Positions 2,148 through 42,032 of a stretch of 64,000 bases of DNA are shown one piece after another. The notes below the pieces were generated by a model, which was not told the origin of the DNA, searched no databases, and saw only the letters and a program-made list of their open reading frames with translations. Each line of letters starts with the position of its first letter. The stretch's first letter is position 1. This stretch comes from Devosia sp. Root635. Lineage in GTDB: Bacteria > Pseudomonadota > Alphaproteobacteria > Rhizobiales > Devosiaceae. Location of the stretch: positions 62,001 to 126,000 of the forward strand of contig NZ_LMGZ01000001.1 in NCBI RefSeq assembly GCF_001427605.1. The letters are read 5' to 3'. Both the position numbers and the translations under genes were made by a program.

Positions 2148-3566
2148 CTAAGCCCCCGGCAGGTCGATCACGGCCCTCACCCCCGGCGCACTGTCCTCTA
2201 TCCGGAATTCCCCGCCATGCAGGCGGGCCACTGCGTCCACCAGCGACAGGCCAAGGCCCGAACCGTGCTCCGACCGGCTTTTCTCCAGGCGCACGAAGCG
2301 TTCCAGCACGCGCTTGCGGTCGGCCTCGGGAATGCCGGGTCCATTGTCGGCTACTTCGATCAGCACCCGATCATTCAGCCGGCGCAGGCCGACAGTGATG
2401 CGCCCCTGCCCTTCCCCTTCGGGCTTGGCGTATTTCACCGCATTTTCGAGCAGGTTGACCATCGCCTGGCCGATCAGTTCGCGGTTGGCATGCAGGTGCA
2501 CATCCGCATCGATGCCGGTTTCCACCACGATGCCCTCGTCCTCCGCCACCGGCCCATAAAGCTCGGCCACGTCGGCCACCACGGCGCTGACATCGACGTC
2601 GGCAAGCGCCCCCGAGGGGGCGCCGGCCTCGGCGCGGGCGATCATCAGCAGGGCATTGAAGGTCTGGATCAGCCGGTCGCTCTCGGCAATGGTGGTTTCC
2701 AGCGCCTGCTGGCGGGTCTCGTCGCTGGCGCCGTCGCGCAAAGCCGTCTCGGCCTGGTTGCGCAGGCGGGTCAGCGGCGTCTTGAGGTCATGCGCGACAT
2801 TGTCGGTGACCTCCTTGAGGCCCTGCAGCAATTGCTCGATGCGGTCGAGCATGGCGTTGAGATTGGTGGCGAGGCCATCGAATTCGTCATTGCGCCGGGT
2901 CACCGGCACACGCTCGCTGAGATTGCCCGACATGATCTTGGTCGAGGTATCGCGGATGGTGTCGATGCGGCGCAGCACGCGACGGGCGGTGATGCCGCCG
3001 GCCACCAGCGAGAACAGGATGATGCCGAGCACGCCGAACAGGAAGCTCTGCACGATGATGGCCGAAAAGCCCTGGCGCTCCACCACATCGCGGCCGACGA
3101 CCAGCCGCATGCCGTTGGTCAGCTCGACCGAGCGCACCACGGCAAAGCCGGTGCGTATCCGGCGCGGCGGGGATTCGGCACCATCAGGCGGATCGATAAA
3201 GGGATTGGCCCGCTCATAGTCGAAGCTGTAGATGCCCGGCTCGATCAGCACATCGGGCGGGACGTCGGTGACATTGCCCAGCAGGTACTGGCCGGTAGCG
3301 TCGCCAAGATAATAGACGCCCGGCCCCGGCGCGCGGGAAATGCGCTCCAGGGCAAAGGCCAGCGCGCGGATGCCCTGGGTGGCATCAATGCGCTGCAGCA
3401 CCCGCACTTCGCGGTCGATGTCATTGGCCTGCTGGCGCTGGATCTGCACGCTGGATTGCCAGGTGATGAAGGCCAGCAGCAGGATGGCGAATAGTGAGAA
3501 GATCAGGATGAACGTCGCCGTCAGCCTGACCGTCGACGTGCGCCAGAGTTGAGCGAAGCGGGTCAA
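2148..3566 (-). CDS. Sensor histidine kinase of a DegP-linked two-component system
   Basis: Membrane sensor kinase of 472 residues. A membrane segment near residues 15-36 and a second near 172-195 bracket a periplasmic sensor region. A HAMP region follows (about 196-245), then the phosphoacceptor box NVAHDLKTPLTRLRN with His259, and a HATPase domain with NLLENAVKYAK, DNGPGIPE and GSGLGLSLVDAVARLHGG. The start is a TTG at 3566, three bases after the stop of the response regulator, so the two genes are probably coupled. Placement after degP suggests an envelope-stress role, but the stimulus is not visible in the sequence. Confidence 0.93.
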   Translation of the reverse strand: MTRFAQLWRTSTVRLTATFILIFSLFAILLLAFITWQSSVQIQRQQANDIDREVRVLQRIDATQGIRALAFALERISRAPGPGVYYLGDATGQYLLGNVTDVPPDVLIEPGIYSFDYERANPFIDPPDGAESPPRRIRTGFAVVRSVELTNGMRLVVGRDVVERQGFSAIIVQSFLFGVLGIILFSLVAGGITARRVLRRIDTIRDTSTKIMSGNLSERVPVTRRNDEFDGLATNLNAMLDRIEQLLQGLKEVTDNVAHDLKTPLTRLRNQAETALRDGASDETRQQALETTIAESDRLIQTFNALLMIARAEAGAPSGALADVDVSAVVADVAELYGPVAEDEGIVVETGIDADVHLHANRELIGQAMVNLLENAVKYAKPEGEGQGRITVGLRRLNDRVLIEVADNGPGIPEADRKRVLERFVRLEKSRSEHGSGLGLSLVDAVARLHGGEFRIEDSAPGVRAVIDLPGA

Positions 3567-32759: not shown

Positions 32760-34016
32760 CTAAAGCCCCCGCACCTGCGGCCGTGTCTCGTTCAACAGCA
32801 ATTCCGTCACCGCCCAGACCAGCGCATCCACGCGGTCCGGCGAGTGGCCATCGCTCAATCCATCAACGGCGAAGCTGCACATCTCGTCTTCCAGCTCGGT
32901 CAGCCCCGCGGCATGGCTCACCAGCCCGCGGGCATAGAGCGCCGCCACCGGCTCGGCGCGGCTCCATTTGCCGCGGCTGGCCCGCACCGCCCGCACCGGC
33001 ACATTGGCATCCACCTGCGCGATCACCGCCGGCACCATGTCGCCGCCCTGGTTCACCTCCACCACGATGGCATCGGCATCATGCGCCACATAGGCCGCCA
33101 CGGCCCGCCGCGCCCAGTCAAGCGGCCGCACCTGTTTCAGCGTGCAATCCTCAAGCACCGCCACCCCGTCGCCCACCCTTCCCGCCACGACGATGCCGCA
33201 GGCATCCGAACTGGCATTGCCCGTCACCGGCGGGTCCACCGCCACCACGATCCGCCCAATGTCCCCGCCCGCAAAGGCCCGGAACATGCCCCGCTGCCAC
33301 AGCGCACCGGGCAGGTCCTCGATCAGTTCACCATCGAGTTCCTGCCGCCCCAGCACCGTGCCCTGGTAGCGCGCCACCACCTGCCCCATGAAATCGGGCG
33401 CCAGATGGGCGTGATTGTCCGCGGTCCGCATCCGGCTCATCACCGTGGCCGGGTCGTCGAGCAGCCGCTTGAGCAAGGCCGTAGGTCGTGGCGTCGTCGT
33501 TGCCAGCTGGCGCGGTCTGTCACCGAGGCGCAGGCCGAATTGTAGCTGGTCCCAGGCCGCTTCGGCATTCGGCCATTTGCCCACCTCGTCGCACCAGGCT
33601 GCCGCAAATTGCGGCCCGCGAAAGCTGTCGGGGTCGGACGCGGACAAAAGCGTGGCCTCCACCTTGTTGGGCCAGATAAGCCTTGCGCCCCGAATAGTCG
33701 GCGTCTCGTCGTCGCGGCAGACGGTGAGCAGGCCGCTTTGCCCGCGTACCATCACCGCCATGGCTTCCGTCATGGTCTCGCCGACCAGGGCAATCGGTGA
33801 AATCTTGCGGGCAACCAGGCTCCGCACCCATTCTGCCCCGGCCCTTGTCTTGCCGGCGCCGCGCCCACCCATGAACAGCCAGGTGGTCCAGTCTCCCGGC
33901 GGCTCCTTTTGGGCGTCATATGCCCAGCGCGACCAGTCGAAATAGCGGTTATAGGCCTCGTCGTCGTTCAATCCGGCGACAACGACGGCCCCCTCAACGG
34001 CGGTTGAACTGGTCAA
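32760..34016 (-). CDS. GTA terminase large subunit (gp2-like)
   Basis: A 418-residue DNA-packaging motor. The Walker A GGRGAGKTRAG spans residues 50-60 (Lys56), and the Walker B region is FAAAWCDEVGKW. The C-terminal RNase H-like nuclease domain begins near VVAVDPPVTG, with further acidic residues at VVEVNQGGD and SPDRVDALVWA. The start is uncertain: TTG at 34016 overlaps the small terminase gene by 23 bases, and another TTG lies at 33971. It packages host DNA into GTA heads. Confidence 0.93.
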   Translation of the reverse strand: MTSSTAVEGAVVVAGLNDDEAYNRYFDWSRWAYDAQKEPPGDWTTWLFMGGRGAGKTRAGAEWVRSLVARKISPIALVGETMTEAMAVMVRGQSGLLTVCRDDETPTIRGARLIWPNKVEATLLSASDPDSFRGPQFAAAWCDEVGKWPNAEAAWDQLQFGLRLGDRPRQLATTTPRPTALLKRLLDDPATVMSRMRTADNHAHLAPDFMGQVVARYQGTVLGRQELDGELIEDLPGALWQRGMFRAFAGGDIGRIVVAVDPPVTGNASSDACGIVVAGRVGDGVAVLEDCTLKQVRPLDWARRAVAAYVAHDADAIVVEVNQGGDMVPAVIAQVDANVPVRAVRASRGKWSRAEPVAALYARGLVSHAAGLTELEDEMCSFAVDGLSDGHSPDRVDALVWAVTELLLNETRPQVRGL

Positions 34017-34416
34017 TTCGCTGGGCCAGCTTTTCCCTTATGTCGCGCATGTCCCGCTTCCGCGGCGGCGTGACCACCTTGGTCTCCTCGCTGGCAATCG
34101 TGGTGATCTTGTCGAAATTCTTGATGAGTTCGGTCAATTGCTGTGCTTCCTTGTCGCCTAATGTTTCGCCCACATTATTGGCCAGTTTCGTCACCTGGCT
34201 TTCCAGCAGGGCAAACAGTTTCTCCAGCGTGGCGCCGCGCCGGTTGGTCACCTTGGCTCGCCGCGATATCCAGTGCTGCGTCTTCCAGCGGTGCTCAAAC
34301 GCACTCTTGGTCACGCCAAACCGCTCGCAGATTTGCTTTATCGTTTCGTCGCCCTGTTCGTAGGCACGCCGGATCGCCACCCAGTCAGGGGTGTTTTGAA
34401 GATTTGACGTTGGCAT
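33994..34416 (-). CDS. GTA small terminase-like protein (gp1-like)
   Basis: A 140-residue protein at the head of the cluster. The N-terminal helix-turn-helix DETIKQICERFGVTKSAFEH is followed by WKTQHWISRRAKVTNRRG, and the C-terminal half is a long charged helix (LEKLFALLESQVTKLANNVG and onward). This fits small terminase/gp1. Start ATG 34416; a TTG precedes it directly. It is the first gene of the minus-strand GTA operon. Confidence 0.82.
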   Translation of the reverse strand: MPTSNLQNTPDWVAIRRAYEQGDETIKQICERFGVTKSAFEHRWKTQHWISRRAKVTNRRGATLEKLFALLESQVTKLANNVGETLGDKEAQQLTELIKNFDKITTIASEETKVVTPPRKRDMRDIREKLAQRIDQFNRR

Positions 34417-34722
34417 CAATGGGTCCCGGCATTTCGGCGGGTCAGCGGCTCATCGCCGCCTCACCCACTTTTCCGACCATGCCTGAACTATAGCTGATCA
34501 CCGTGACGCGGGGATAAGATGGATAAGTTCTGCGCACGACCACAGCGCTGGCCCACCCACCAGCCGTCACCCTCGGGCCTGACCCGAGGGCTCTTCACTT
34601 ACGGAGCGTTCGGCAAGTGCACCCCCCCTCGGGTCAAGCCCGAGGGTGACGCGCGGTGTGTGAATGAAGAAGGCCTGCCCCGTTTCCGCGGGACAGGCCT
34701 GACTTCAGCAACAAGCCGAAAA
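34417..34722. other. Gap upstream of GTA cluster, with family D-like palindromes
   Basis: No gene was recognised in these 306 bases. Two GC-rich palindromes lie at 34566-34590 (CCCTCGGGCCTGACCCGAGGG) and 34626-34650 (CCCTCGGGTCAAGCCCGAGGG), inverted relative to each other. A hairpin at 34673-34697 (GGCCTGTCCCG / CGGGGCAGGCC) follows the DUF2147 gene stop and may be its terminator. The GTA promoter should lie in 34417-34560, but I see no convincing -35/-10 pair. Confidence 0.6.
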
Positions 34723-36498: not shown

Positions 36499-36629
36499 GG
36501 CATGCCATCCATTTTGGGGTCGCGCCCAGGGCGCGCGAGGGACGGCTTATTAAGGGTTCAGGTCTTGGCTGGCAACCTCTGTGATCCCCACCACCGCAGG
36601 GCTATCGGGCCGCAAATTCTTCAGTCGTC

Positions 36630-36712
36630 TCCCTCTCCCTTGCGGGGAGGGATCAAGGGTGGGGGATGTTTAGCCCCGATATCCGGGCTCCCAACACCCC
36701 TCCCACCATCGG
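36630..36712. repeat. Palindromic repeat, short variant of family C
   Basis: CCTCTCCCTTGCGGGGAGGG with GGGTGGGGGATG at the left and CCAACACCCCTCCCACC at the right. It resembles shortened 16633-16744. It lies between the Hsp70 start and the GGDEF-like gene stop, together with an inner palindrome AGCCCCGATATCCGGGCT. Confidence 0.65.
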
Positions 36713-36724
36713 GTCATGAGAAAA

Positions 36725-37378
36725 TCAGGCAGCCCGGCGCCGACGCTCCTGCGCCGGCCGCAGATCCACGCCCTGCATCTGGCCCATGCCCCTGCGCTGG
36801 GCCTTCTTCAGCGCCTCGGCGGCAGCCTCGAAGAATTTCCGTTCATAGCCGCCGCGCGGATTGGTCACCGCCAGGCCCATGCTCAGCGTCACCATGCCGG
36901 CATGGCTTTCCTTGTGCGGCATGGCCAGTCGGCGCATGGCGTCGGCAATCTTGCCGGCGGTGGCGCGCGCCATCAGCGCCGGCATGTCGGGCAGCACGAT
37001 GACGAAACTGGCGGCGCCCAGCCGCAGGCAGCTATCGCCCGCGCGCGGCAGCGCCTCGGTGATCGCCTGCGTCACCGACAGCAGGCAGCGATCGGCCTCG
37101 CCGCGGCCATAGGCGGTAAAATAGTCGGCGAAGCGGTCGATTTCGATGACCAGCAGGCTCAGCGAGACATGCCGGGCCGCCGCATGGTTCCAGCCCTGCA
37201 CCAATTCATCCTCGATCCGGATGCCCAGCTTGGGCTTCATGCCGATGGAGCGGGCGATGGCGGCCTGGCCATAGGCCGGCACCCGCTCCTGCCGCGCCGG
37301 TCGCAACGCGCCCAAAGCCGCCCGGACACGGGTCCAGAACGGCTCGCTCTGATCTTTGGCAATCGCGGTGTCGGTCAT
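36725..37378 (-). CDS. Degenerate GGDEF-domain protein
   Basis: A 217-residue soluble protein with one GGDEF-like domain: VSLSLLVIEIDRFADYFTAY and GRGEADRCLLSVTQAITEAL match the substrate-binding part. The signature GGDEF loop reads LGAASF, so diguanylate cyclase activity is not expected. MVTLSMGLAVTNP and EAAAEALKKAQRRGMGQMQG complete the fold. No sensory or membrane region. It may bind GTP or c-di-GMP or act by protein contact. Start ATG 37378. Confidence 0.85.
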   Translation of the reverse strand: MTDTAIAKDQSEPFWTRVRAALGALRPARQERVPAYGQAAIARSIGMKPKLGIRIEDELVQGWNHAAARHVSLSLLVIEIDRFADYFTAYGRGEADRCLLSVTQAITEALPRAGDSCLRLGAASFVIVLPDMPALMARATAGKIADAMRRLAMPHKESHAGMVTLSMGLAVTNPRGGYERKFFEAAAEALKKAQRRGMGQMQGVDLRPAQERRRRAA

Positions 37379-37492
37379 GATCGTCGCCCATCCTAGGCTC
37401 GCATTGTGCGGGATCAGGCCACAACATGGTTAACGACGTGTAAATACGTAGGAACCGTGCGGCGGGCAGGACTGTCGCTCCTCACCCGGATT

Positions 37493-37606
37493 CCAGGCCA
37501 CAGCCTGGTTTTATTCCATATATTTCCAGGCTATAACCTGGTTTTAATACATACAATAGCAGGCTACAGCCTGGTATTTCGCATAAAAAACCAGGCCGCA
37601 GCCTGG
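37493..37606. promoter_or_regulatory. Phased array of four palindromic operator-like sites
   Basis: Four 16-base palindromes, consensus CCAGGC-NNNN-GCCTGG, start at 37493 (centre CACA), 37526 (TATA, right arm ACCTGG), 37559 (TACA, left arm GCAGGC) and 37591 (CGCA). Spacing is 33, 33 and 32 bases, about three helical turns, so all face the same side of DNA. The spacers are AT-rich and unlike the arms. The last site ends one base before GTG 37606 and 15 bases before the regulator ATG 37621, so occupancy would block the promoter or ribosome site. The downstream HTH protein is the obvious candidate binder. Confidence 0.8.
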
Positions 37607-37620
37607 TGAAAGGTCTGAAC

Positions 37621-38085
37621 ATGGCATGGAACCGTAAGTTGCAGCAGGCGCGCCAGAGCCTCGACCAGAAGCTGCGGGCGTTCCAACCCGCCGGCCAGCA
37701 TCCTCCTCCGGCAAAGGGCTGGATTCGGGCCCTTCGGAATGCGCTGGGCCTGTCTGCCGCACAACTTGGCGACAAGCTGGGTGTGCGGCCGCAATCCATC
37801 GACGATCTGGAAAGGAGCGAAGCCGCCGGCACGATCAGCCTCGATGCCATTGCCCGCGTGGGCCAGGCCATGGACTGCACCCTGGTCTACGCGCTTGTTC
37901 CGAACACGTCGCTGGAAACCATCGTGCAACGGCGCGCCGAGGCCCTTGCCATGGCAGCCATAGCCGGGGTCGCCCATACCATGGCACTGGAGGATCAACA
38001 GGTTCCCAGCCCCCTCGGGCAGCAGGTCAAGGATTATATCGAGGACCATATCTCCGAGCGCGATCTGTGGCGCGACAATGGCTGA
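37621..38085 (+). CDS. Mobile mystery protein A (HTH regulator)
   Basis: A 154-residue protein of the mobile mystery protein A family. A xre-type helix-turn-helix lies at about 35-72 (ALRNALGLSAAQLGDKLGVR followed by PQSIDDLERSEAAG). The rest is helical (CTLVYALVPNTSLETIVQRR). Start ATG 37621 is supported by AAAGG seven bases upstream; a GTG at 37606 lies in the last operator. It overlaps the Fic gene by eight bases. Probably the autoregulator of the module and a possible antagonist of the Fic partner. Confidence 0.9.
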   Translation: MAWNRKLQQARQSLDQKLRAFQPAGQHPPPAKGWIRALRNALGLSAAQLGDKLGVRPQSIDDLERSEAAGTISLDAIARVGQAMDCTLVYALVPNTSLETIVQRRAEALAMAAIAGVAHTMALEDQQVPSPLGQQVKDYIEDHISERDLWRDNG

Positions 38086-38662
38086 CATCTTTGCCGGTCC
38101 GGAAGGCTCGACGCCTCTCCACCCGCAGGATCAGCGCGGCCTCCGCCAATCGTGGATCACCACCCGTGACGACCTCAATGCGGCCGAGCAAGCCAATATC
38201 CTTGCCGGCCGCGCCTGGGCGATGCGCAGCCGGGTCGCGCTGACTTCGGAGGATTACCTGCGCCGGCTGCACCGGCAGATGTTCGGTGATGTCTGGTCCT
38301 GGGCCGGGCAGTTGCGGCAGATCGAAACCAATATCGGGGCTCTGCCGCACGAAATCCCCACCCGGCTGCGCCAGTTTCTCGGCGACGTGGATTACTGGAT
38401 CGCCAACCAGACCTGGCCGCCCGACGAACTCGCCGCCCGCCTTCACCACGGACTGGTGTTGATCCATCCCTTCACCAATGGCAACGGCCGCCACACCCGG
38501 CTCACTGCCGACCTTATGTGCCGTCAACTTGGCCTTGCGCCCTTCACCTGGGGCCGCCACAGCCTCGATTCCGTCGGCGAGACCCGCCAGGCCTATCTGG
38601 CCGCCTTGCGCGCGGCCGATAATCACGACTTTGCCCCGCTCCTCGCCTTCGTGCGGTCCTAA
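38078..38662 (+). CDS. Mobile mystery protein B (Fic-domain protein)
   Basis: A 194-residue Fic protein with the complete active-site motif HPFTNGNGR at 130-138, so transfer of AMP (or another nucleotide part) onto a target hydroxyl is expected. N-terminal helices include [21 protein letters not shown] see no obvious inhibitory (S/T)xxxE(G/N) helix in the protein; control may come from partner A. The pair is found on mobile and genomic-island DNA. Its stop overlaps the convergent YcgN-like gene by four bases. Confidence 0.92.
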
Positions 38663-39114
38663 AGCGCTTCCGGCGGTTCCCATTCCGGCCAGTCCACTGC
38701 GTGGTCTTCCCATTCGTCGGGTGCGATGTCCTGTTCGGCGAAGGTGCGGCCCCGCGCCGAGACGCCGACATCGACCACGGTCTGCGGATCGCCCGAGACC
38801 AGCGGGTGCCACCAGGCCAGCCCCTTGCCCTCGGCAATGCGGCGATAGGCGCAGGTGGTGGGGATCCACTTGATTTCGGTGACGTTCTGCGGTGTCAGCT
38901 TGATGCAGTCGGGCACCTTGGCCTGCCGGCCCGGATAGTCGGTGCAGCCACAGGTATCGCCATCGAGCAGCTGGCAGCGCACGTCCGAGGTGATGAGGAT
39001 ACCGCTATCCTCATCCTCGAGTTTTATCAGGCAGCAGCGGCCGCAGCCGTCGCAGAGCGCTTCCCACTCCGCCTCGGTCATTTCGTCCAGCGTTTTTTCG
39101 TCCCAGAAGGCCAT
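38659..39114 (-). CDS. YcgN-family cysteine-cluster protein
   Basis: A 151-residue protein of the YkgJ/YcgN zinc- or iron-binding family. Cysteines: [65 protein letters not shown]. The cluster pattern is complete. Function unknown. Start ATG 39114 (MAFWDEKTL). Convergent with the Fic gene. Confidence 0.92.
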
Positions 39115-39250
39115 TTTAACTCGCGGGCTGGTAAGCCTGTTGCCGGTTTGCCCTTGTCGGGCGCGCAGCGCAATCATATTCCAGCGATCATGTTGCGTTG
39201 ATCACCGCCTGCGCGGACAACAGTCCGTGAGACCAAGCCCGGGGATAGTG

Positions 39251-41404
39251 GTGCAGGATCCGTTCTATACCAAGGAAAAGCGCAAGAAATCGGGCGGCAT
39301 GCTGGCCGCCGATGCGTGGCTGGATTCCTCGCTCTACGAGTTCTGGCAGGCGCTGGGCCGCGGCTATACCCGCTTCCAGGATTTCATGAGCATCTTCCAC
39401 GTCGCCGGCATCAAGCGGCTGTTCGTGGAACTGGTCAGCGACGGTCTCTCCTTCTTCGCCATCGGCTGCGTGCTGATGACCGCGCTGGCCCTCCCCGCCT
39501 TCGACGCCACCGCCTCGGGCGAATTCAACAAGGCCGAGGACTATTCGGTCGTCTTCCTTGATCGTTTCGGCACCGAGATCGGCCGTCGCGGCATCCGTTC
39601 CGACGATTCCGTCGCGCTCGATGACATGCCCGACTATCTGCTCAAAGCCACCCTCGCCACCGAGGATCGCCGCTTCTACGACCATTTCGGCATCGACGTC
39701 GTCGGCACCCTGCGCGCGCTGATGAGCAACGCGCAGGGCGACAATTCCACCCAGGGCGGCTCGTCGATCACCCAGCAGCTCGCCAAGAACCTGTTTCTCA
39801 GCTCCGAGCGCACGCTCGAGCGCAAGATCATCGAGGCTTTCCTCGCCGTCTGGCTGGAATGGCACTATTCCAAGGATCAGATCCTCAAGCTCTATTTCGA
39901 CCGCGCCTATATGGGCGGCGGCAATTTCGGCGTCGTGGCCGCCGCCGACTACTATTTCGGCAAGAAGGTGCAGGACATCAACCTGGCCGAGGCCGCCATG
40001 CTGTCGGGCCTGTTCAAGGCCCCCACCCGCTATGCGCCGCATGTCGACCTGGCCGCCGCGCGCGGCCGCGCCAATCTGGTGCTGTCCAACATGGTGGCCG
40101 CCGGCTTCCTCACCGAGGGCCAGGTTACCGCGGCCCGGCGCCACCCGGCCACGCCGATCAGCCGCGCCGACGATGCCAATTCCCCCAATTACTTCCTCGA
40201 CTGGGCCTTCGAGCAGTCCAAGACCCTGATCGAGACCCACAACCACGCTTCCAACAATTTCATCGTTCGCACCACCATCGACACCACGTTGCAGAAATAT
40301 GCCGAGGAGGCAGTGGTTTCGACCATCCTCGAACAGGGCGAGCGATATGATGTCAGCCAGGCGGCCATGGTGGTCACCGATACCCAGGGCGCCATCCGCG
40401 CCATGGTGGGCGGCACCGACTATGCCAAGAGCCAGTTCAACCGCGCCATCGTCTCGACCCGCCAGCCGGGCTCGGCCTACAAGATTTTCGTCTATTCGGA
40501 AGCCTTCGAGCAGCTAGGCCTCACCCCAGCCGATCTCATCACCGACCGGCCCGTCTGCATCGGCGATTGGTGCCCGGTCAATTACGGCCGCAGCTACAAG
40601 GGCACGGTAACGCTGGCCAGCGCCTTCGCCCAGTCGCTCAACACCGTGCCCGTCACCCTCTCGATCAAGACCGGCCGCGAGCCGATTGCCGCGCTCAGTC
40701 ATCGCATGGGCCTGCAGGCGGACTATCCGGTCACCCGCTCGCTGGCGCTCGGCGTCGCATCAGTCTCGGTGCTGGACATGACCTCGTCCTACGCCGTGCT
40801 GGCCAATCACGGCTACAAGACACCGGGCTTCGGCATCACCCGCATGACCACGCTCAATGGCGAGCTGGTCTACGAGGCCGATCCCGATGCCCCGCGCGAG
40901 CGCGTCCTCAGCGACACCACGGTTGCCAATATGAATTCCATGCTGCGCGGCGTCGTCACCGGCGGCACCGGCACCCGTGCCCGTATCGAGGGCGTGCCCG
41001 TACTCGGCAAGTCGGGCACCACCTCATCTTATCGCGACGCCTGGTTCTGTGGCTTTACCGGCAATTACGTCGCCGCCGTGTGGATGGGCAATGACGATTA
41101 CCACGCCACCAACAATCTCACCGGGGGAAGCCTGCCGGCCGTCGCCTGGCAGAAATTCATGGCCTATGCCCACACCAATATCGAAATCCTGCCGGTTTTC
41201 GGCGTCGATTTCGTGCCCGAACCGACCGTGGTCGCCGAAGCCGATCCCGCGCTCGAAGACGAGATCATCGAACGCCCGCCCAGCCTCACCCCCGCCGCCG
41301 CACGCAAACTCGTCGACCTGGCCGGCCGCTTCGCAGCGACACTGGAAACCGCGGCGCCAGCGGCCCATCAGGCGAGCGTGCCGGGAAATACGCAGGGGCT
41401 GTAG
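39251..41404 (+). CDS. Class A penicillin-binding protein, PBP1A type
   Basis: A 717-residue bifunctional peptidoglycan synthase. A membrane anchor lies near 67-88. The transglycosylase (GT51) domain has catalytic Glu138 in ATEDRRFYDHFGID and QGGSSITQQLAKNLFLSSER. The transpeptidase has Ser408-Lys411 (PGSAYK), SLNTVP and Lys587-Ser-Gly-Thr. I chose GTG 39251 so that the protein begins MQDPFYTKEK, as in related proteins; GTG 39248 is adjacent. It makes and crosslinks glycan strands in the periplasm. Confidence 0.95.
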   Translation: MQDPFYTKEKRKKSGGMLAADAWLDSSLYEFWQALGRGYTRFQDFMSIFHVAGIKRLFVELVSDGLSFFAIGCVLMTALALPAFDATASGEFNKAEDYSVVFLDRFGTEIGRRGIRSDDSVALDDMPDYLLKATLATEDRRFYDHFGIDVVGTLRALMSNAQGDNSTQGGSSITQQLAKNLFLSSERTLERKIIEAFLAVWLEWHYSKDQILKLYFDRAYMGGGNFGVVAAADYYFGKKVQDINLAEAAMLSGLFKAPTRYAPHVDLAAARGRANLVLSNMVAAGFLTEGQVTAARRHPATPISRADDANSPNYFLDWAFEQSKTLIETHNHASNNFIVRTTIDTTLQKYAEEAVVSTILEQGERYDVSQAAMVVTDTQGAIRAMVGGTDYAKSQFNRAIVSTRQPGSAYKIFVYSEAFEQLGLTPADLITDRPVCIGDWCPVNYGRSYKGTVTLASAFAQSLNTVPVTLSIKTGREPIAALSHRMGLQADYPVTRSLALGVASVSVLDMTSSYAVLANHGYKTPGFGITRMTTLNGELVYEADPDAPRERVLSDTTVANMNSMLRGVVTGGTGTRARIEGVPVLGKSGTTSSYRDAWFCGFTGNYVAAVWMGNDDYHATNNLTGGSLPAVAWQKFMAYAHTNIEILPVFGVDFVPEPTVVAEADPALEDEIIERPPSLTPAAARKLVDLAGRFAATLETAAPAAHQASVPGNTQGL

Positions 41405-41442: not shown

Positions 41443-41691
41443 GTGAAGCCGATCACCTACAAGCCTGCTGCCACTAAGGCCCTTCGCAAGATGCCCGCGA
41501 ACACGGCTCACAGGATCATTGGCAAGATTGAAGCCTATGCAGCCGATCCGGCTTCGCAGCAAAACAATGTCAAGGCGCTTAAAGGCACCCAAGCAATCAG
41601 GCTGCGCGTCGGGGACTGGCGTGTCATCATGCATGACGGCACTGTGCTCGACATTATTGATATCGGTTCGCGTGGCGGCATTTATGACTGA
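41443..41691 (+). CDS. RelE/ParE-type toxin
   Basis: An 82-residue toxin-like protein: ITYKPAATKALRKMPANTAH, RIIGKIEAYAADPASQQNNV followed by KALKGTQAIRLRVGDWRVIM, and DIIDIGSRGGIYD. This is the RelE fold with the basic helices and the RLRVGDWRVIM strand. GTG start at 41443 with a weak ribosome site. The stop overlaps ATG 41691, but I put the antitoxin start at 41703. Toxin-first order fits HigBA-like modules. Confidence 0.85.
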   Translation: MKPITYKPAATKALRKMPANTAHRIIGKIEAYAADPASQQNNVKALKGTQAIRLRVGDWRVIMHDGTVLDIIDIGSRGGIYD

Positions 41692-41702
41692 TGGAGACCA
41701 CC

Positions 41703-42032
41703 ATGAATGAAATGATCACCATCCCTCGAGCGGAATATGACCGGCTGCGTGAAGCCGCCGAAGACCTCGCCGATCTCCAGATTTATGAGCGGGCCATCGC
41801 CGCTAAAGAAGAATCCATCCCCTCCGAATTTGTCAACCGCATGATCGACGGCGAAAGCCCCGTCCGGGTCTTCCGCGACTTTCGTGGCATGACCCAGATG
41901 GCCTTGGCCAAGGCGTCGGGTGTCAACCGCGTACAGATCGCCGATATCGAGGCCGGTCGCGGCAAGGGCTCCGTCGAAACCCTGCGCAAGCTGGCCGAGG
42001 CCCTGCGGGTCACTATCGACGATCTGGTTTGA
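41703..42032 (+). CDS. HTH antitoxin of RelE-type module
   Basis: A 109-residue xre-type regulator. The N-terminal half is a helical toxin-binding-like part (PRAEYDRLREAAEDLADLQI), and the C-terminal half holds the helix-turn-helix (FRGMTQMALAKASGVNRVQI followed by ADIEAGRGKGSVETLRKLAE). Start ATG 41703 has GGAG six bases upstream. ATG 41691 would overlap the toxin stop but would put that site inside the gene. Expected to neutralise the upstream toxin and repress the pair. Confidence 0.85.
   Translation: MNEMITIPRAEYDRLREAAEDLADLQIYERAIAAKEESIPSEFVNRMIDGESPVRVFRDFRGMTQMALAKASGVNRVQIADIEAGRGKGSVETLRKLAEALRVTIDDLV

Follow-up and report, generated by a model that had tools for sequence, protein, structure and literature searches.

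Small helix-turn-helix (HTH) antitoxins which bind several palindromic operators upstream of their own operon are known from the HipBA and HipBST systems. HipB represses its own operon by binding four operators cooperatively (PMC3376134), and three evenly spaced operators with 53-bp gaps are described for Legionella HipBST (PMC10653801). Class I Fic systems (VbhTA, EcFicTA; Fic-1-AntF) combine a Fic protein with a small upstream partner which blocks the Fic site by a helix-end motif [S/T]xxxE[G/N], the glutamate of which pairs with the last arginine of the Fic motif (PMC3667792, PMC5033356). In AMPylating Fic proteins, the latter motif reads HxFx(D/E)GNGRxxR (PMC3667792). Fic activity is also linked to DNA binding in Coxiella CbFic2 (PMC10628234) and Yersinia CccR (PMC9755527). 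CbFic2 carries its DNA-binding domain and Fic in a single protein, whereas in the module described here DNA binding is assigned to a gene of its own, which lies upstream of the Fic gene and is preceded by an operator array.

The window is a stretch of 64,000 nucleotides from Devosia sp. Root635 (contig NZ_LMGZ01000001.1, positions 62,001 to 126,000 of the forward strand), and all positions refer to it (Table 1). Both genes of the module belong to named families: the TIGR02612 profile scored mobile mystery protein A (hereafter A) with 164.8 bits (cut-off 122.6), the TIGR02613 profile scored mobile mystery protein B (B) with 250.9 bits (cut-off 124.4), and Pfam assigned B to the Fic domain PF02661. 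The gene calls behind the coupling of A to a Fic gene, proposed earlier from inspection of the letters alone (the sequence-only reading), were confirmed. Two small adjacent genes with the regulator in front correspond to the layout of a type II toxin-antitoxin system, and B was found downstream of A in 109 of 112 loci; the locus L141 stops at a contig end.

Table 1. Positions of the module and its features in the window.
Feature	Position	Strand	Sequence	Basis or remark
Module (array, A and B)	37453..38658	+		missing as a whole in the corresponding intergenic slot of related genomes
Operator 1	37492..37509	+	TCCAGGCCACAGCCTGGT	18-bp palindrome
Operator 2	37525..37542	+	TCCAGGCTATAACCTGGT	33 b from operator 1
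Operator 3 (penultimate)	37558..37575	+	AGCAGGCTACAGCCTGGT	33 b from operator 2
Operator 4	37590..37607	+	ACCAGGCCGCAGCCTGGT	32 b from operator 3; core ends 14 b 5' of A start codon
Mobile mystery protein A, 154 aa, HTH_3 regulator	37621..38085	+		TIGR02612
HTH_3 domain of A, residues 35-89	37723..37887	+		domain search
[S/T]MxLExQ segment of A (T120-M-A-L-E124-D-Q126), proposed Fic-inhibiting	37978..37998	+		conservation; putative role
Mobile mystery protein B, 194 aa, Fic/DOC	38078..38662	+		TIGR02613; overlaps A end by 8 b
Fic motif of B, Asn at the usual D/E position	38465..38500	+		conservation

The module resembles HipBA and HipBST in that a small HTH regulator is encoded in an operon preceded by several palindromic operators. 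A further likeness is a conserved C-terminal tryptophan (W88 of HipB, W150 of A, the latter in 100/100 A proteins), and the structural matches listed for the A model include HipB chains, with E values of 0.05 and weaker. It differs in its partner, which is a Fic protein and not a HipA kinase, in a long extra C-terminal helical part of A, in the operator sequence (TATCC-N8-GGATA in E. coli) and in its step of 32-33 bp, versus the 53-bp gaps in Legionella and the 28 bp between O1 and O2 of E. coli, as counted in the printed oligonucleotide (PMC3376134). Since the partner is not a kinase and the HipB profile TIGR03070 (couple_hipB) gave A 24.7 bits against a cut-off of 71.65, the module is not a HipBA system. 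A search of the PDB with the A profile revealed eight weak sequence matches (E 0.0003-0.002), namely to a 434 variant, P22 c2, MBF, HigA2, HigA3 and a designed protein. The operators of 434 and P22 are likewise resembled by the 18-bp palindrome with its CA..TG core and YYATRR centre; A differs from these repressors by its C-terminal part and by two to five sites per regular chain at a 32-33-bp step. The fold search with the A model gave 317 matches with a best E value of 0.033. None of the 50 listed of these 317 explained the C-terminal part of A, as they were either HTH-containing or unrelated long alignments of high rmsd.

The palindrome CCAGGC-N4-GCCTGG, searched with up to three mismatches, occurred 114 times in the window. 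This number is near chance (shuffles: mean 98.7, sd 9.2, with at least 114 matches in 6 of 100), so that the signal of the array is its near-perfect cluster: at most one mismatch was found at the four array sites exclusively, which start at 37493 (0 mismatches), 37526 (1), 37559 (1) and 37591 (0). A repeat search of the window returned four copies at spacings of 33, 33 and 32, and Tandem Repeats Finder described the array by a period of 33 and 2.6 copies. Four evenly set palindromes, as claimed by the sequence-only reading, were thus found by both pattern and repeat searches, and the claim that they run up to the ribosome site of A also held (see operator 4 in Table 1). The four-unit array spans 116 bp. 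The related pattern CCAGG-N6-CCTGG is present at 16 places in the whole 3.8-Mb genome, versus 11 for the reversed pattern used as a control. The array accounts for three of these 16 places; the other 13 are distant from each other, and no second cluster of this pattern exists in the genome.

To relate the array to the family, 112 A loci were collected, comprising 27 over-cut-off loci from genome searches, 80 GTDB contigs and 5 viral contigs (IMG/VR), but not L019-L022, whose matches were weaker. As the GTDB contigs are the best 80 of 533 relatives and mostly Rhizobiales by title, the sample leans to alphaproteobacteria. After removal of 10 near-duplicates and 2 loci with short upstream sequences, 100 non-redundant upstream regions were searched for their best repeat pair at all lags from 18 to 80. 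Lags of 31-34 or 63-67 bp, which make up 9 of the 63 lags and are thus expected in about 14% of cases by chance, were found in 94/100 upstream regions of A (50 at 31-34 and 44 at 63-67). The same lags were found in 27/100 gene bodies (14 of these 27 at lag 63), in 18/98 regions further upstream and in 4/27 other HTH genes, one of 28 having been dropped for its short upstream sequence. Fisher's test gave p values of 6e-16 or lower; it assumes independent loci, an assumption that does not hold completely here. The repeat score exceeded the 99th percentile of mononucleotide shuffles in 83/100 A upstream regions versus 5/27 controls. A chance origin of the step is ruled out by the gene-body, further-upstream and other-HTH controls and by mono- and dinucleotide-shuffled DNA. 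The sequence-only reading had proposed a search upstream of other A genes and had named a lack of palindromes there as the outcome which would speak against it; the step or its double is present in nearly all regions, in contrast to the control HTH genes.

The centres of palindromes showed autocorrelation peaks (lags 14-74) at 32-33 and, doubled, at 64-66. A second detector, which works without a spacing rule, yielded 259 spacings, 149 of them at 33, 75 at 32 and 4 each at 31 and 34, so that 224/259 are 32 or 33, while none of the 259 was 21-23 or 41-44, corresponding to two or four helical turns. Regular chains were present in 87 loci, with two, three, four and five sites in 11, 28, 34 and 14 loci, respectively, and had a mean step of 32.67 (sd 0.52, 211 steps). 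Six of the 100 regions showed other lags (L003, L005, L080, L090, L107, L120). Seven loci, in which the greedy detector had misplaced sites (L003, L005, L014, L090, L120, L135, L136), were set aside; inspection by eye revealed matching half-sites, some of them degenerate. The remaining 93 loci were used for counts of arm mismatches, operator distances and promoters, the latter in 87 loci after dropping 6 without a two-site chain. An operator array with a 32-33-bp step thus characterises the family of mobile mystery protein A. The idea that all sites share one DNA face needs a correction: with 10.5 bp to a helical turn, 33 bp correspond to 3.14 turns, and neighbours are therefore near one face but not exactly on it. 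For the mean step, the drift amounts to about 40 degrees per site.

The operator sequence itself is variable. From 312 sites we derived the half-site consensus A-T-C-A-G-N-Y-Y-A; the full palindrome of the family reads ATCAG-N-YYATRR-N-CTGAT, of which the window contains a CCAGG version. At least six clearly different half-sites exist in the family. Three Devosia loci have ACCAGG and most loci of Rhizobiales have ATCAG; ATAAAG occurs together with MTAQG[IV]VSL and GTCAA or GACAA together with K-Q-R, and there are also GCTCA, GTGCA and more. Half-site positions 7 and 8 carry a pyrimidine (a purine in the opposite arm) in 1152/1248 cases with variable letters, a pattern reminiscent of indirect readout in 434 and P22 operators. 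Thus, the operator sequence varies by A clade at a constant step, and such tracking is expected if A is the binder. Distances between operators correlated with distances between recognition segments when the rest of the protein was allowed for (partial r 0.20; 3/1000 permutations as high; 93 loci). Since two other nine-residue windows of A correlated slightly better (0.22 and 0.21), the recognition helix is not singled out. The palindromes are very probably the operators of A itself.

A candidate promoter was found within part of the arrays. A -35-like TTG directly 5' of the penultimate operator occurred in 34/87 arrays, versus 2/87 for the last, 2/76 for the third and 1/48 for the fourth site. 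Thirty-three of these 34 arrays belong to GTDB-contig records which, by their names, we take to be Rhizobiales, and the remaining array (L004) nearly duplicates that of Rhizobium sp. CF122. The promoter phase is seen in Rhizobiales loci only, and elsewhere the operator arm itself is -35-like. In the phased geometry the operator fills the 17-bp spacer and the -10 hexamer would begin at its last base, so that a dimer bound there would sit within the core promoter. Both hexamers reached at least 4/6 matches in 14/87 arrays; consensus matching is weak by itself, as the mean match to TTGACA was 3.54/6 for the operator's own arm (offset +13) versus 2.83 at -6. The array of the window itself contains no consensus sigma-70 promoter.

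The module is a unit of presence and absence. In a genus-mate (L163) with a 94% identical GGDEF protein, the homologues of window positions 37452 and 38659 are only 21 b apart. The same slot was compared in 14 of 30 retrieved loci; four of the 14, including the window, hold the module, and ten lack it, with a flank gap of at most 64 b in eight, about 207 b in one and about 1030 b in one. Array, A and B are hence present or absent together. One slot (L168, about 2230-3259 of a reversed locus) contains about 1 kb of other DNA in place of the module. Within the window's phylum, A exceeded the cut-off in 17/398 sampled genomes; phage records gave no A match at 1e-5.

Taken together, we consider A to be an autorepressor of the A-B operon whose dimers form a cooperative array on its own operators and which also neutralises B, a reading to which we assign a probability of roughly 0.7. 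Each A dimer would occupy one 18-bp palindrome, and contacts between neighbouring dimers, which the spacing data make rather likely, would fix the step at 32-33 bp. The resulting cooperative protein-DNA array of four units would extend over the 116 bp to the ribosome site and, by analogy with loci containing a recognisable promoter, cover the promoter of the operon, so that A would repress both itself and B. The rigid step gives cooperative binding no more than indirect support. A would further neutralise B, the helix-end glutamate of its [S/T]MxLExQ segment probably facing the last arginine of the Fic motif as in the FicA/VbhA antitoxins. Loss of A, presumably under stress, would relieve repression and inhibition together. 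By analogy, A looks like an autorepressing antitoxin of the HipB type with a fixed array.

Other explanations of the array were weighed against this autorepressor reading. The palindromes might act in the transcript as hairpins, i. e. as attenuators, terminators or a type III repeat RNA antitoxin. Repeat units of about 33 nt are indeed reminiscent of type III antitoxin RNAs, and sites 1 and 2 of the window are followed by TTTT and appear terminator-like on the + strand (4 such sites found on both strands together versus 0.8 expected). An RNA stem, however, would keep G-U pairs and lose C-A pairs, and the arm mismatches of 323 sites comprised 144 of the GU type (+ strand) and 137 of the CA type (p 0.72). 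Because C/A mismatches are as frequent as G/T mismatches, the sites act as DNA rather than as RNA hairpins, and the same counts speak against a type III system, in which repeats act as RNA. Moreover, Rfam gave no match within 36500-39500 up to E 1, and the -35-like element in front of the penultimate operator, where present, would leave the sites further upstream outside that transcript. We therefore regard an RNA function as extremely improbable. A reading of the array by a host regulator or nucleoid protein instead of A is highly improbable. A host reader would agree with the ATCAG consensus common to many Rhizobiales loci. Against it stand the shift of the site sequence with the A clade at an unchanged step, the joint presence or absence of array and genes in the Devosia slot, and the lack of a second CCAGG-N6-CCTGG cluster in the genome.

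A site for transfer, recombination or partition, iteron- or centromere-like, which makes the module mobile would suit both its clean presence or absence and the frequency of the family on plasmids (239 records, of which 101 are from Agrobacterium and 53 from Rhizobium). Family members are also chromosomal, e.g. L118, however, and 37453-38658 encodes A and B only, without a recombinase. In addition, the A proteins of three relatives with the module in the same slot are about 75% identical, as would follow from inheritance with occasional loss more readily than from recent transposition. A mobility site is accordingly very unlikely; the family search for arrays covered regions upstream of A, and the genome-wide search covered CCAGG-N6-CCTGG in the window genome. 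The most serious alternative, although itself unlikely, is an ordinary autorepressor on independent sites, the constant step being a relic of tandem duplication without contact between dimers. Sites within a locus are alike, the 33-b units of the window including spacers being 79% (copies 1 and 2) and 64% (copies 1 and 3) alike, and the four HipB operators and the three evenly spaced HipBST operators cited above also agree with it. A duplication relic is at odds with the predominance of 32 or 33 among spacings across clades with differing operators, and with spacers which across loci are AT-rich (29% GC) and share one -35-like stretch but no common sequence. It is also at odds with three relatives which have palindromes but lack the step.

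These relatives are single-gene HTH-nucleotidyltransferase fusions (L021, L022, L152) with an A-like HTH domain, without the C-terminal part of A and without B. Their upstream palindromes are of the type GTCAA-N8-TTGAC; the members of the best pairs are separated by 49-52 b, and another exact copy is found at a distance of 159-188 b. A step of 31-34 was not conspicuous in any of the three, scores of 16-20 being at the level of shuffled DNA. Conversely, two orphan A genes (L033, L017) have no B downstream, and a search of their genomes with TIGR02613 gave no match at 1e-10. L033, from a genome 84% complete, has two sites 32 b apart, and L017, from a complete genome, has a weak array with steps of 34 and 76. 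These comparisons suggest that the step may be set by the C-terminal part of A rather than by B, the caution being due to the few cases, three fusions and two orphan A genes. Pfam, applied to L021 and L022 only, gave mostly weak NTP_transf_2/Polbeta matches, and L022 matches PADLOC PDC-S09. On plasmid CP140858.1, a mobile mystery protein A is annotated with an NTP transferase domain protein under one match.

The B model matched known Fic structures, namely VbhT (TM 0.71/0.70-0.74), EcFicT (0.66/0.71) and also FICD. Of the full Fic active site which the sequence-only reading had ascribed to B, the histidine, the GNG and both arginines are present; the metal-binding D/E, however, is replaced by asparagine in 93/95 B proteins, and the motif hence deviates from that of AMPylating class I Fic proteins at this position. 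Standard AMPylation by B should therefore not be assumed. Apart from one stray match, an inhibition motif of their own is absent from the 95 B proteins, as is the case in class I.

The partner of B shares with class I antitoxins a [S/T]xxxE at a helix end and differs from them by its HTH domain and operator array. In A, a long C-terminal helix (residues 98-124) ends in [S/T]MxLE. Residue 120 is S/T in 97/100 A proteins and His in 3/100; M121, E124 and Q126 are each conserved in 100/100. The G/N which follows the glutamate in the class I motif [S/T]xxxE[G/N] is found at residue 125 in 12/100 A proteins only. Three columns of A are conserved for S/T and three for E, from which the chance of an offset of four was estimated at roughly 6%. 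Inhibition of the Fic site by the C-terminal helix of A is thus a possibility we rate somewhat below even odds. Coevolution between A and B (mean-field couplings, 95 pairs, effective 42) was uninformative as support for a contact, as four permuted pairings gave scores of 1.00-1.58, a range which includes the top inter-protein score of 1.45.

One can speculate further that A is double-acting, its HTH half building the fixed-pitch array and its C-terminal half both setting the pitch and plugging a Fic protein whose asparagine-containing motif hints at a chemistry different from standard AMPylation; we consider this doubtful. If it were true, a single C-terminal helix would be needed for both occupancy of the DNA and inhibition of Fic, or the two would compete for it, and assembly of the array would read out the A:B ratio. 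Blocking of the Fic site by this helix would join control of Fic and of transcription in one small protein. The literature searched, which left out most subscription journals, contained neither an antitoxin of this double-acting kind nor an operator array for the mobile mystery protein A/B pair. The rigid conserved array provides a direct handle on the regulator A, predicts the DNA for binding assays of family members and suggests how the regulator-Fic pair keeps itself off, and the natural operator variants should be useful to learn how an HTH domain reads DNA.

In Mesorhizobium loti, a mobile mystery protein b gene was among the 50 most heat-induced genes (M 4.02), and the part of that study used here gives no data for A (PMC3989490). 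The induction fits derepression under stress; other causes are possible. Among the PADLOC models for candidate defence systems, B matches PDC-S04 (best E 1.7e-26) and, with a weaker score, SoFic. In the neighbourhood of the module, about 3 kb upstream, the window contains prophage-like genes (32760-34419), one for the large subunit of a terminase and one for a small HTH protein. A second toxin-antitoxin-like pair, in which an HTH_3 gene comes after a gene for a ParE-like toxin, is located at 41443-42032, about 3 kb from the module.
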